NCBI GenBank assembly: GCA_009773395.1
Contig: WRPI01000001.1
Span: forward strand, 434,001-498,000
DNA from: Hyphomonadaceae bacterium
Lineage (GTDB): Bacteria; Pseudomonadota; Alphaproteobacteria; Caulobacterales; Aquidulcibacteraceae
DNA: 64,000 nucleotides
Direction of reading: 5' to 3'
A program made the translations under genes and the position numbers. How positions within the stretch are numbered: the stretch's first letter is position 1; each line of letters opens with the position of its first letter. Below are positions 13,440 to 61,114 of this stretch, one piece after another. Below the pieces are notes generated by a model that worked only from the letters and a program-made list of their open reading frames with translations, was not told where the DNA came from and searched no databases.

Positions 13440-13617
13440 GGAATGGTTTATGGCGAAACTTGTTTCCCCAAAACCATTCATCAAGTGTGTTATGCGCCCT
13501 AGACTTTTGTCAAGCCCGCGCTTTGCGCCCGAAGGCTTTGGGGCTTGACAAAAATCTAGGGCGCAAAAGAACAATCATCGAATGGGCTTAAGGCAAACTT
13601 GTCCTTAAGACCATTCC
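13440..13617. repeat. Three-hairpin repeat, copy A
   Basis: Member of the dispersed structured-repeat family. Hairpin 1 (13441-13479) begins GAATGG and ends CCATTC. The central long hairpin (13494-13564) has arms starting GCGCCCTAGA and ending TCTAGGGCGC, with a conserved inner GTCAAG/CTTGAC. Hairpin 3 (13580-13616) again runs GAATGG to CCATTC. The outermost GGAATGG/CCATTCC can also pair across the whole element. The loop is of the second class, in the orientation opposite to copy F. It occupies most of the mnmG-mnmE gap (13289-13774), which otherwise holds only parS 3. Confidence 0.85.
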
Positions 13618-24078: not shown

Positions 24079-24304
24079 AAGAAAGAATAAGTGGCTAAGG
24101 AATGGTTTATGGCGAACCTTGTCTCGCCAAAACCATTCATCGAGTTTGTTAAGCGCCCTAGGTTTTAGTCAAGTCCCGAAGCCGCTTCGCGGTCGCGCTT
24201 TGCGCGAGGACTTGACTAAAGCCTAGGGCGCGAAGGGATAATAAGCGAATGGGCTTAGGGCAAACCTGTCCTTAAGACCATTCCAAAGCCACTTATTCTT
24301 TCTT
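24079..24304. repeat. Three-hairpin repeat, copy B (most complete)
   Basis: Outer inverted repeat 24079-24105 / 24278-24304 pairs at 25 of 27 positions. It encloses hairpin 1 (24100-24138), a long central hairpin (24153-24231, arms GCGCCCTAGG / CCTAGGGCGC with inner GTCAAGTCC/GGACTTGAC) and hairpin 3 (24247-24283). The GAATGG and CCATTC ends are shared between the outer stem and hairpins 1 and 3, so alternative folds compete. The loop is of the first class (GCCGCTTCGCGGTCGCGC). The right flank to about 24353 recurs beside copy G. It follows dnaQ; 23993-24078 shows nothing else. Confidence 0.88.
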
Positions 24305-24358: not shown

Positions 24359-24456
24359 CCAGCACTTCGCCCCTTGACAGGCGCACTAGGCGGCAGAACC
24401 ATATTTGAAGGGTTTTTGTTAAAACAAAGTTTTCACCAAAAACCCCTCCCAAGCCT
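24359..24456. repeat. Truncated three-hairpin repeat, copy H (related to copy E)
   Basis: CAGCACTTCGCCCCTTGACA followed by an altered CACTAGGCGGC corresponds to half of the central hairpin of copy E. It is joined to the reverse complement of copy E's first hairpin (24407-24450, GAAGGGTTTTTG ... CCAAAAACCC). The other half of the centre and the third hairpin are missing. It lies directly beside copy B, suggesting one element was damaged by insertion or recombination with another. Confidence 0.7.
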
Positions 24457-24503
24457 TGACACCCTTGCTCCCCATAAAGCCCTTGTCTATTAATCTCTCA
24501 AAG

Positions 24504-30812: not shown

Positions 30813-32165
30813 ATGAAAAAGAAATATTTTGGCACTGATGGGGTTCGGGGCGAAGCCAATAAATGGCCGATGACTGCCGAAACCGCGCTCTATCTTGGCA
30901 TGGCCGCTGGAACTTATTTCAAAACTGGCGGTGGCCATAATAATATCGTGATAATTGGCAAAGACACGCGGCGATCGGGCTATATGGTGGAATATGCTTT
31001 GGTTTCTGGCTTTGCTGCCGTTGGCATGGATGTTAGGATATTGGGCCCTATCCCAACGCCAGCAGTGGGAATTTTGACGAGGAGCCTACGCGCTGATTTA
31101 GGGGTTATGATTTCAGCTTCCCACAATGGTTTTGCCGATAATGGAATTAAATTTTTTGGCCCCGACGGCTTCAAATTGGACGACAATCAAGAGCTTGATA
31201 TTGAAAAACTAATGGCGGAACAAGAAAAAATCGCCCGCGCCGCGCCAAGCCAAATCGGACAAGTGAAATCTTTTGAAGATTCGCGCGGTCGTTATGTTGA
31301 ATTTGCTAAAAACGCTTTCCCGCGCGGTGCCCGCCTCGACGGGCTAAGAATTGTGATTGATTGTGCCAATGGTGCAGCCTATAAAACCGCGCCTTGGGCG
31401 TTGTTTGAACTTGGTGCCGAAGTTGTCGAAATCGCGGTTGCACCAAATGGCATGAATATCAATGATGGTTGCGGTTCAACCGATTTGGATTTGCTCAAGA
31501 CAACAGTAATGGAACGCCGCGCCGATTTGGGCATAGCGCTTGACGGCGATGCCGATAGAATTGCCCTAATTGACGAAAAAGGCAATGAAATAGACGGCGA
31601 TCAAATAATTGCGGCAATCGCGCGCGATATGATAAATGCTGGCACTTTGAACGGTGGCGCAGTTGTCACGACCATTATGTCCAACCTCGGCCTTGAAAAT
31701 TATATGACTAGTTTGGGCTCAAAGCTGGTGCGCACCGATGTTGGGGATCGCAATGTAGTTATGAAAATGCGCGAATTGGGCGCAAATTTGGGCGGTGAGC
31801 AATCGGGGCATGTGGTGGCGCTTGATTATGCAACCACTGGCGACGGCCTAATAAGTGCGCTTTTGGTTTTGGCTTCAATGGTTACCAACAATAAAAAAGC
31901 CAGCGAAATTTTGAATTGTTTCAAACCCGCGCCACAAATAAAAAAGAACATTCATTATGTGGGCACTTCGCCGCTAAATAATAGCAAAATTGCCGACCAT
32001 GTTGCCAAAACCGCAGAACATTTAACCCAAAATGGCGCGCGCTTGGTCGTCAGGACATCCGGCACTGAGCCATTAGTTAGGCTTATGGCGGAAGGCGCAG
32101 ACAAAGGGCTTTTGAAAACCACAATTGATGAATTGGCGCATATTATGGCCAAAGGGCAAGTCTAG
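30813..32165 (+). CDS. glmM: Phosphoglucosamine mutase
   Basis: Converts glucosamine-6-phosphate to glucosamine-1-phosphate for UDP-GlcNAc, feeding peptidoglycan and LPS synthesis. The protein has 450 residues: YFGTDGVRG at the N-terminus, the active-site serine in MISASHN (about 103), the metal loop LDGDADR (about 244) and the phosphate-binding RTSGTEPLVRLM at the end. ATG 30813 follows an AAAGAGGAAA site; an upstream TTG is rejected. It converges on the DUF6065 gene across repeat copy C. Confidence 0.97.
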   Translation: MKKKYFGTDGVRGEANKWPMTAETALYLGMAAGTYFKTGGGHNNIVIIGKDTRRSGYMVEYALVSGFAAVGMDVRILGPIPTPAVGILTRSLRADLGVMISASHNGFADNGIKFFGPDGFKLDDNQELDIEKLMAEQEKIARAAPSQIGQVKSFEDSRGRYVEFAKNAFPRGARLDGLRIVIDCANGAAYKTAPWALFELGAEVVEIAVAPNGMNINDGCGSTDLDLLKTTVMERRADLGIALDGDADRIALIDEKGNEIDGDQIIAAIARDMINAGTLNGGAVVTTIMSNLGLENYMTSLGSKLVRTDVGDRNVVMKMRELGANLGGEQSGHVVALDYATTGDGLISALLVLASMVTNNKKASEILNCFKPAPQIKKNIHYVGTSPLNNSKIADHVAKTAEHLTQNGARLVVRTSGTEPLVRLMAEGADKGLLKTTIDELAHIMAKGQV

Positions 32166-32194
32166 GCTAAGTCGCTAAAACAATAAAAACTGGG

Positions 32195-32375
32195 AACGGC
32201 TTTATGTCACGTTGTGCCAGTAAAGCCTTGGTTCGATTTTGTAATTCGCGCTATTTCATTGTCAAGTCCCGCAGCCGCTTCGCGGTCGCGCTTTGGCGCG
32301 AGGACTTGACAATGAAATAGCGCAATTAGACTTGAAGAAGGCTTGTGGCAGATTTTGCCATAAGCGTTCAAGACC
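32195..32375. repeat. Three-hairpin repeat, copy C (sequence-diverged arms)
   Basis: Same architecture as copy B but with different stem sequences. Hairpin 1 (32198-32227) has arms GGCTTTA / TAAAGCC. The central hairpin (about 32242-32329) has arms GCGCTATTTCATT / AATGAAATAGCGC with the conserved inner GTCAAGTCC/GGACTTGAC. Hairpin 3 (32331-32372) has arms CTTGAA / TTCAAG and inner TGGCA/TGCCA. The first-class loop is nearly unchanged. It fills the 299-base gap between the convergent glmM and DUF6065 genes. Confidence 0.82.
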
Positions 32376-32464
32376 AAATAATCCAAGTCATGCATGATGG
32401 TAATTTGTTGTATAAAAGCACCATTTTTATGCCAGCAAATAAAACTCGCACCTTGATAATTGTC

Positions 32465-33436
32465 CTATTTCTTCTTCGCAGCCGATCCCGGAAATGCCAT
32501 CACGTCTAATTTCGTCCAATGGCTATGGCCTTTAACTGGGCAGCCATCGGGGCCTTTGCCGCGAAAATACCCCTTTTGCCATTTTTCTTTGGTGGCTTCA
32601 ATTGAAGTTGGGTCATTAAGCGCGTCGTTAAATTGGTTGCGGCTTGCTTGAAAACCTTCATAGGCTTCTTTTAAATCTGGGTTAGAATCAATCGGCAAAA
32701 ACACGGTTTCATATTGTTCAATTTGCGCAAGATTTACTGGCATTATATGGGCAAAAGGCTCACCTTTTTCAAATCTAACTGGGAAATAAGGCCGCGTCAT
32801 CGCCCAATTCATTGTGAATGTATAATGCGACCAATCGGTTTCGATAATACCAGTCATCGCACTAATGCCGTCTTTGGGATTATTCATCGGCCCAGTAACC
32901 ATCATTTGCACACCGGGCGGAGTGCGGAAAATTTGGTTTATGTGAAAAGTCAAAACCCCGCTGCCAAAATGGCTAACGGGCGGCGGCCAGCCATCGTCAA
33001 TGATATTGATATCAATCGCGTCTCCATGAGCATCGCCATTCCAAATTGCCTCAAAAGTGCAAGGCGATAATAATTCCCAACCATATTGATTGGCAATATT
33101 AAGCGGCAAACAACGGTAGGCGAATCTGTTGGGCGTGCTTTCCATAAAGTCACGCTGCGCTGGCCCGGGGCGCGAAATTGTTGGCGCAAAACCAAGTGTA
33201 TAAGCAATAATTTTGGGCTTTTCTTTATGCGGGCAGGATTTTACTTCGTCCTCGGCGGGAGCAAGCGAATAACTGGCCGAATTTGGCACATCGCCAACCG
33301 CCTCGGCCCACACGCTTTCACGTGTTTCTTCTTTTGCTGTCGCAAAAGTACCGGCCGCAGTTGCTGCTGCTGTTGGCTTTTGGGTGGGCTTAGAAGTGCG
33401 CCGTCTGTTGTTAGTTTTTTTGCTCGCTTTTTTCAT
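32465..33436 (-). CDS. DUF6065 family protein
   Basis: Soluble protein of 323 residues. An N-terminal Lys/Thr/Ala-rich low-complexity tail (about 1-45) precedes a globular domain with NRFAYRCLPLNIANQYGWELLSP (in part), GSGVLTFHI, GWPPPVSHFG, and ETDWSHYTFTMNW. This pattern matches my recollection of DUF6065, a family of unknown function. The C-terminus is basic (PGSAAKKK). No membrane segment or signal peptide is seen. It is convergent with glmM and divergent from kdsA. Confidence 0.7.
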   Translation of the reverse strand: MKKASKKTNNRRRTSKPTQKPTAAATAAGTFATAKEETRESVWAEAVGDVPNSASYSLAPAEDEVKSCPHKEKPKIIAYTLGFAPTISRPGPAQRDFMESTPNRFAYRCLPLNIANQYGWELLSPCTFEAIWNGDAHGDAIDINIIDDGWPPPVSHFGSGVLTFHINQIFRTPPGVQMMVTGPMNNPKDGISAMTGIIETDWSHYTFTMNWAMTRPYFPVRFEKGEPFAHIMPVNLAQIEQYETVFLPIDSNPDLKEAYEGFQASRNQFNDALNDPTSIEATKEKWQKGYFRGKGPDGCPVKGHSHWTKLDVMAFPGSAAKKK

Positions 33437-41186: not shown

Positions 41187-41382
41187 GCTTTGGAATGGTC
41201 TTATGGGCAGGCTTGCCCTAAGCCCATTCGCTTATTATCCCTTCGCGCCCTAGGTTTTAGTCAAGTCCCAAAGCCGCTTCGCGGTCGCGCTTTGGCGCGA
41301 GGGCTTGACAAAAACCTAGGGCGCACAAACACTTGATGAATGGTTTTGGCGAGACAAGGTTCGCCATAAACCATTCCTAAGC
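41187..41382. repeat. Three-hairpin repeat, copy D (arms inverted relative to its centre)
   Basis: Outer stem 41187-41198 / 41371-41382 (GCTTTGGAATGG with CCATTCCTAAGC). The GGGC-type hairpin, third in copies A, B and F, comes first here (41193-41229). The central hairpin follows (41245-41324, arms GCGCCCTAGG / CCTAGGGCGC) with its first-class loop in the same direction as copy B, and then the GGTTTTGG-type hairpin (41338-41376). The arms are thus flipped while the centre is not. It lies upstream of the basic-tail protein gene. Confidence 0.87.
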
Positions 41383-47353: not shown

Positions 47354-47502
47354 AAACTTTCTCCGCTTTTATTGCTCGGGTGAATACACTGTCTGGTAAA
47401 AAGAAGCACGAAAAAAGACTTCACAAAATCCAAAGTGCGGTAATTAACATAAAGCAATGCCCGAAAAGTGCTAAACGGTTTTTGGAAAGAGCTAAGGCTT
47501 AG

Positions 47503-47683
47503 GAAGGGTTTTTGGTGAAAACTGTGTTTTAACAAAAACCCTTCATATATGATCTTGCCGCCCCGAGTGCTTGTCAAGGGGTGGCTTCGCCATGCTAGCA
47601 CTTCGCCCCTTGACAAGCACTCGGGGCGGCTTTCACCATTGATACCAAGTTTTTTGAAGCTAAAAGGTTCACCAAAACTTGGT
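47503..47683. repeat. Three-hairpin repeat, copy E (different sequence family, same layout)
   Basis: Hairpin 1 (47503-47544) has arms GAAGGGTTTTTG / CAAAAACCCTTC. The central hairpin (47557-47630) has a perfect 25-bp stem starting GCCGCCCCGAG and ending in GTCAAGGGG, with a loop of its own. Hairpin 3 (47644-47683) has arms ACCAAG / CTTGGT. Only the layout and the inner GTCAAG/CTTGAC are shared with copies A-D. It lies between ppa and the RND permease gene (gap 47354-47793). Confidence 0.84.
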
Positions 47684-47793
47684 CATGTCTCTTTTCAAAT
47701 TGTACCAAATCGACAGGTCTTTTTTGAATAAACCAGTGAATATAGGTGATTTTATAGCCTCGACATCAGTATTCAGTCGGCTATAGCCGCTGC

Positions 47794-54953: not shown

Positions 54954-55147
54954 AGTGGCTTTGGAATGGTTTATGGAAAACCATGCTTTTCCAAAACCAT
55001 TCAACGAGTTTGTGTGCGCCCTAGGTTTTTGTCAAGCCCCTTGCCTTCGGGCGCAAAGCGCGGGCTTGACAAAAACCTAGGGCGCGAAAGGACAATAACC
55101 GAATGGGCTTAAGGCAAACCTGTCCTTAAGACCATTCCAAAGCAACT
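54954..55147. repeat. Three-hairpin repeat, copy F
   Basis: Outer stem 54954-54969 / 55132-55147 pairs at 15 of 16 bases. Hairpin 1 (54964-55002), central hairpin (55016-55085, arms GCGCCCTAGG / CCTAGGGCGC) and hairpin 3 (55101-55137) follow in the copy A/B order. The loop is of the second class (CCTTCGGGCGCAAAGCGCGG) and runs opposite to copy A's loop. It lies between the channel gene and the decayed toxin; 54783-54953 shows no convincing gene. Confidence 0.87.
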
Positions 55148-60912: not shown

Positions 60913-61114
60913 GTGGCTTAGGAATGGTCTCAAGGGCAGGTTTGCCTTGAGCCCATTCAATTATTATCCTTTCGCGCTATGAATTTAGTCAAGTCCTCGC
61001 GCGAGAGCGCGACCGCGAAGCGGCTACGGGACTTGACTAAATTCATAGCGCAAACACACATTCGATGAATGGTTTTGGAAAAGCAAGGTTTTCCATAAAC
61101 CATTCCTAAGCCAC
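60913..61114. repeat. Three-hairpin repeat, copy G (arms and centre inverted relative to B)
   Basis: Perfect 15-bp outer stem 60913-60927 / 61100-61114, with weaker pairing outward to about 60897/61127. The internal order is the GGGC-type hairpin (60922-60958), the central hairpin (60974-61051, arms GCGCTATGAATTTAG / CTAAATTCATAGCGC) with the first-class loop reversed, then the GGTTTTGG-type hairpin (61067-61105). The right flank 61115-61184 is nearly the same as copy B's right flank, so the inside is flipped while the flank is not. The rest of 60825-61455 shows only AT-rich promoter-like sequence. Confidence 0.87.

Follow-up and report, generated by a model that had tools for sequence, protein, structure and literature searches.

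About 25 bases after glmM lies one of several copies of a palindromic element in which the stem sequences change from copy to copy and the base-pairing is kept. The question raised by this locus is what is actually conserved there. A sequence-only reading of the window (the whole 64-kb stretch of DNA analysed here) had offered an either/or: either the fold, not the sequence, is conserved, or arms are replaced as units. Paired substitutions of this kind are normally taken as proof of a functional RNA.

The element is non-coding and about 190 nt long. Its two side hairpins, 1 and 3, are linked by joints to a central palindrome of about 70-80 nt that lies between them. GTCAA/TTGAC occupies a fixed place in the central palindrome, and small hairpins lie within the central loop. 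On the opposite strand, hairpin 1 reads similarly to hairpin 3, which makes the element nearly two-fold symmetric; the reverse strand of 14 of the 29 type I copies was also scored by R1, a covariance model for which only 28 type I copies were used. In the copy after glmM (copy C), the full three-hairpin core lies at 32193-32370 of the plus strand (R1 match of 78.0 bits, model positions 1-186). Folding places its hairpin 1 at 32198-32227 and its hairpin 3 at 32331-32372, both on the plus strand, with the central palindrome at 32248-32323. The latter is composed of two 22-nt arms (32248-32269 and 32302-32323), 100% complementary, with the inner GTCAAG/CTTGAC and a loop of two mini-hairpins. Folded as single-stranded DNA, copy C reaches -58.7 kcal/mol, as compared to -25.7 (sd 3.0) in 200 shuffles (z -11). 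Central loops of all types are made of mini-hairpins such as CCGCTTCGCGG; their opposite strand contains GCGAAGC, an unusually stable DNA mini-hairpin.

Seven copies (A to G) are present within the window. Type I comprises copies A (13440-13617, plus strand, 196.4 bits), B (24099-24284, plus strand, 199.6 bits), D (inverted, 41192-41377, minus strand, 194.8 bits), F (54963-55138, plus strand, 190 bits) and G (60921-61106, minus strand, 181 bits), the last one having type I side hairpins and replaced central arms. Copy C represents type C and copy E (47502-47684, minus strand) type E, while half of a further type E element adjoins copy B in the opposite orientation (24362-24461, minus strand; blastn identity of 81-90% to the four type E copies). 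BLAST and covariance-model searches of the 2.63 Mb genome to which the window belongs gave 36 full copies, namely 29 of type I, three of type C (C7:466190, C7:374518 and C7:357994) and four of type E (C7:319314, C7:364796, C7:394462 and C7:481491). Beside them we found some fragments, and an additional type I copy devoid of the central palindrome in which parts of both side hairpins are kept (C7:290807-290904, L048). The motif GTCAAG-N20-50-CTTGAC matches seven times in the window versus 0.03 in shuffles, and at 33 places genome-wide versus one for the reversed control; one of the 33 (C7:230933) shows no strong palindrome and was left out of the copy count. Contigs C7 (25 copies) and C8 (9 copies), which make up 37% of the genome, hold 34 of the 36 copies; in strain UKL13-1 of the sister genus the copies are spread along the chromosome and such clustering is not evident. 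Origin-centred placement was considered (dnaA lies at C8:102 kb), and neither an origin nor a terminus was clear from the sampled GC skew. In the copy near dnaA (C8:103862-104088; L059:2963-3189), about 50 additional bases are inserted within the tip of hairpin 1.

The central arms had been read as GCGCCCTAGG in B, D and F, GCGCTATTTC in C, GCGCTATGAA in G and GCCGCCCCGA in E, each with its exact complement, and all of this holds; copy A adds another paired change, GCGCCCTAGA/TCTAGGGCGC. Hairpins 1 and 3 of C and E, described as completely rewritten and still pairing, are recovered by R1 as the same three-hairpin fold (78.0 bits for C and 80.0 bits for E), even though this model had seen type I only. 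One fold is common to three sequence types (I, C and E) in one genome. The inner GTCAAG/CTTGAC, said to be kept in all copies, is indeed present in all seven copies of the window, but it is not fixed genome-wide: two relatives of type C have GTCAAT/ATTGAC and GTCAAC/GTTGAC, which are again paired changes.

The alignment of 28 type I copies has standard pairs in 95.7% of its stem cells. Both sides have changed in 64 cells; shuffles gave 18.3, and sliding the partners gave no more than 19. Further pair types number 29, which does not exceed the value for shuffles (30.4). In 20 copies from the sister genus, 21 pairs have changed on both sides, versus 5.2 in shuffles. The covariation expected by the sequence-only reading was also found against a null that takes the tree of the copies into account (29 copies of the window's species, 178 columns, 60 null alignments, E<0.05), and its claim of a conserved fold is borne out with these additional copies. 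Two of 15,225 column pairs were significant, both in stems (an inner pair of the central palindrome and a pair at the tip of hairpin 1), a third stem pair had an E of 0.25, and no off-stem column pair among the 29 copies passed E<0.05. The two pairs stand among 65 stem pairs, and most stem positions barely vary in the window's species. When 74 central stems of all types (48 columns) were subjected to the tree-aware test, one of 990 pairs was significant, on the stem register; here the differences between types are mostly absorbed by the tree. The covariation is real, but it is based on few variable pairs within the species.

Replacement of arms as units, the other half of the either/or, is seen in copy G and in the copy at C8:210688. 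Both keep the side hairpins of copy B (33-34 of 40 letters shared in hairpin 1 and 34 of 38 in hairpin 3), but not its central arms, each of which has 7-8 of 14 letters alike. Arms in other genomes (e.g. GCGACATCTGGGT, GGGCGATTTGTCG, ATTTCAGGGGACTGAGGAT and ACCGGTATTTCGCT) are quite different yet adjoin GTCAAG. The 13 positions from -14 to -2 were compared over 73 distinct central stems. Watson-Crick pairing reaches at least 96% at 8 of them and 81-89% at the remaining five, and each has at most four pair types, around the nearly fixed GTCAA/TTGAC. Pair-by-pair change occurs as well: between copy C and its relative at C7:374518, C-G has become T-A and A-T has become G.T within one arm. Two processes are mixed, pair-by-pair change and replacement of whole arm types, and both halves of the either/or are supported. 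A caveat absent from the sequence-only reading is that template switching between arms can also yield paired changes, and signs of such switching are seen in the central palindrome.

The element is dispersed in the genomes of certain freshwater bacteria. An element of the form hairpin, long palindrome, hairpin is present in all nine genomes of the sister genus (g2, that is Aquidulcibacter, Ca. Phycosocius and UKL13-1; g1 stands for the species and genus of the window), with unrelated arms. Applied to 60 genomes of the family, R1 found the own genome, seven of the nine g2 genomes and one of g6 (central stem only), and it matched none of the four other members of the window's genus. The sequence after glmM differs in all four of these and contains no copy, and they thus provide no empty site. 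A second model, R2, was built from g2 and used to score the best 8 candidates in each of 299 genomes of the order. On these candidates it matched 14 genomes: all nine of g2, G000, one of g5 and three of g33, which belongs to another family; in g33 and g5 it is mostly the central stem that matches, accompanied by one side hairpin at most. Across the class, 385 genomes gave the own genome and one weak partial match only. An exact g2 arm pattern occurs in 63 stretches in Aquidulcibacter, Ca. Phycosocius bacilliformis, Hyphomonadaceae bacterium UKL13-1 and related MAGs; the two named species are Caulobacterales. The element of copy B had no blastn match in plasmid or phage collections, which weakens the idea of its carriage by either. 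In the sister genus the core is surrounded by other flanks than in the window's species. Many cores of Ca. Phycosocius (L152, L154, L159, L161, L162, L167 and L201) lie between inverted copies of a different palindromic repeat (GTCCGGGATGAC / GTCATCCCCGCC), which results in nested palindromes. A search of openly licensed literature yielded no description of the element.

Is the fold under selection, or are the stems merely homogenised? The mismatches that are tolerated seem informative in this respect. In 29 g1 copies, hairpin 1 has no G.T and 11 A.C cells, while hairpin 3 has 15 G.T and no A.C cells. At 53 independent places of g2 (kept of 63 rows, with the divergent copies L093 and L107 excluded before alignment), hairpin 1 has 2 G.T and 15 A.C cells, and hairpin 3 is less one-sided, with 11 G.T to 5 A.C. 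Because an A.C cell becomes G.T when the complementary strand is read, wobble is tolerated in each of the side hairpins on that hairpin's own strand. Over both groups, own-strand wobble prevails in the side hairpins by 52 versus 7 cells, or by 23 versus 5 distinct pair positions (counted by hand), the latter being the fairer figure because related copies are not independent. Mismatches in the g1 central arm and inner stem (4 G.T, 8 A.C) have no clear strand bias; the outer central arms of g2 contain 11 G.T and 3 A.C, six of them at one pair. The joints, which are unpaired, are similar between the genera. The left one has the consensus ATCaAGTgTG in g1 and ATCGAGntTG in g2, with AGNNTG in 22 of 29 and 51 of 53 copies, respectively, and the right one contains A(C/T)AAT in 27 of 29 and 50 of 53. 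The pair adjoining GTCAAG is unpaired in 51 of the 52 g2 places with letters there (C.T 28, C.C 20, and A.G, G.G and C.A once each); being mostly one fixed C facing T or C, this mismatch could partly reflect inheritance. Of 31 distinct g1 stems, 26 have a Watson-Crick pair there. One-strand wobble, joints kept between genera and the unpaired position beside GTCAAG argue, at the level of sequence comparison, that the fold is probably selected and not merely homogenised. The right joint has another feature, in that the central-stem CTTGAC is followed 16-19 bases on by A(C/T)AAT (e.g. at 24208-24245); together these might form a candidate outward promoter, which would start near hairpin 3.

It might be argued that mutation alone keeps the palindromes perfect, with replication template switching copying one arm onto the other, so that no selection on the fold is needed. 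The exactness of the arms fits this idea, and so do one-base gaps matched in both central arms (4 of 29 g1 copies), a central loop present in both orientations (12 and 17 of 29) and an inner g1 position occupied by all four Watson-Crick pairs with few intermediates (T-A 10, C-G 6, G-C 6, A-T 4, T-G 1 and C-A 1). Moreover, template switching is reported to render the arms of inverted repeats alike and to flip the spacer between them (PMC8604942), and to create and preserve RNA hairpins (PMC8794818). Flipped loops and doubled one-base gaps do argue that template switching also repairs the central palindrome. As a complete explanation it seems unlikely to us, as it predicts neither the one-strand wobble of the side hairpins nor joints kept between genera outside the stems, and arm-copying would erase the mismatch seen in 51 of 52 places beside GTCAAG. 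A different possibility is that the element acts as RNA at message 3' ends, where a hairpin carried by read-through transcripts coming from either side would protect or process the message, as proposed for REP/BIME. Of 37 placed copies (the 36 and the one lacking the central palindrome), 35 are downstream of at least one gene; 19 lie between convergent, 16 between tandem and 2 between divergent genes according to a rough gene caller, while the window's 57 neighbouring gene pairs comprise 10 convergent, 37 tandem and 10 divergent ones. Tolerance of G.T is also what an RNA would show. On the other hand, a position downstream of genes is expected for any harmless insertion, and on either strand it is the more distant hairpin that tolerates wobble, which does not fit a terminator met first. 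A scan of 32100-32480, covering copy C, revealed no intrinsic terminator (hairpin followed by a T run), and the terminator reading is weakened accordingly for this copy. Nor does the element appear to be a known RNA, as no Rfam family matched at gathering score in the 64 kb, the best sub-threshold score being 28.4 bits for a microRNA model whose gathering score is 101.7. We regard such action of an RNA at message 3' ends as rather unlikely.

Part of the type I cores sit in a carrier with ends like TAGAGCATCGGACGTTCAAGTTG and its complement and with TA at the border. Counted in type I copies only, ends within 8 of 25 letters of the consensus were recognised on the left in 17, on the right in 11 and on both sides in 7 of 30 copies, and TA borders many of them. 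A separate palindromic element of 164 nt has the same terminal repeats (C7:87808-87971, L082:1501-1664; C7:93201-93364, L084:1358-1521), with further copies on contigs C6, C8, C10 and C15; GATTC (GANTC) occurs in its right end and in that of several type I carriers, outside the three-hairpin core. Such ends could suggest an ordinary MITE, with palindromes that arose incidentally from transposon ends and nested insertions and a fold shared only through common descent. The TA-bordered repeats in part of the type I copies and the 164-nt element with the same ends are in its favour. We nevertheless find this explanation improbable, because the core occurs within other flanks in the sister genus and plain descent does not explain arms that are wholly different while joints and pairing are kept. 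Mobilisation by an IS630-type transposase is weakened as well: DDE_3 was absent from the own genome, and none of 24 carrier-end matches were paired at a transposase-sized distance in 3-kb loci, leaving no autonomous partner. A REPIN/BIME, in which a RAYT (Y1) transposase moves two REPs in inverted orientation, would share with the element the inverted hairpin pair, the signs of strand-specific recognition and the internal irregularities; single-strand REP recognition requiring a bulge is known (PMC8266576). However, the Y1 domain was found in none of the 14 g1 and g2 genomes (it was present in 3 of 20 genomes searched, all of other genera), the alignments of 28 and 22 copies inspected by eye had no GTAG or similar tetranucleotide beside hairpin 1 or 3, and there are only 36 copies. 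This identity is highly improbable.

What we observe is a conserved fold with rewritten stems, kept joints, flips, whole-arm swaps and side hairpins whose wobble lies on one strand. This suggests conservation of the folded shape and not of the sequence. The reading that we favour, and to which we would give roughly even chances, is that of a new lineage-bound family of dispersed non-coding REP/MITE-like palindromic repeats in which the folded single strand would be the inherited object. Some factor may recognise the hairpins in single-stranded DNA, either at the fork or during copying of the element, and presumably reads each side hairpin on the strand to which it belongs. The central palindrome would be re-perfected, flipped and occasionally replaced through template switching or through exchange between its inverted arms, and in the window's species many type I copies would reside within the MITE-like carrier with its TA-flanked terminal inverted repeats. 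The opposite strand preferences of the two side hairpins make it somewhat likelier that the folded single strand is DNA than that it is RNA. A bolder version, which we put forward only tentatively, is that this is a Caulobacterales element under selection on the fold, whose spread or function might need nothing but a folded single strand and the GTCAA/TTGAC mark, with stems, carrier and loop orientation exchangeable as long as one conserved partner still recognises it. If the fold alone is recognised, Caulobacterales should contain a partner that reads shape together with a five-letter mark. With dozens of copies per genome in several species, selection on the fold becomes separable from replication-driven palindrome repair, and signs of both can be seen in different stems of this one element.

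Several known systems share some of these properties. The element is like structured non-coding RNAs of Rfam in its conserved fold with covariation and unlike them in that no family reaches its gathering score and the two side hairpins favour opposite strands. MITEs such as RUP and Correia/NEMIS (PMC2229807) are likewise short, non-coding and intergenic, and TA with terminal inverted repeats occurs in part of the g1 copies; the differences are that no matching transposase was found and that the core is kept between genera inside different flanks. The CcrM-associated intergenic repeats (CIR) of Caulobacter come from the same order and are intergenic with palindromic arms, and GATTC lies in one terminal arm of the g1 carrier, outside the core. 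According to PMC2229807, CIRs are about 110 bp long with two arms and a linker; by this description they differ from the present element with its three hairpins and about 190 nt. With REP, BIME and REPIN it shares intergenic palindromes, an implied strand-specific single-strand recognition and two palindromes in inverted orientation, as hairpin 1 reversed resembles hairpin 3; it differs from them in lacking the GTAG foot and a RAYT gene, in its 36 copies, and in the central palindrome of 70-80 nt that stands between its hairpins.
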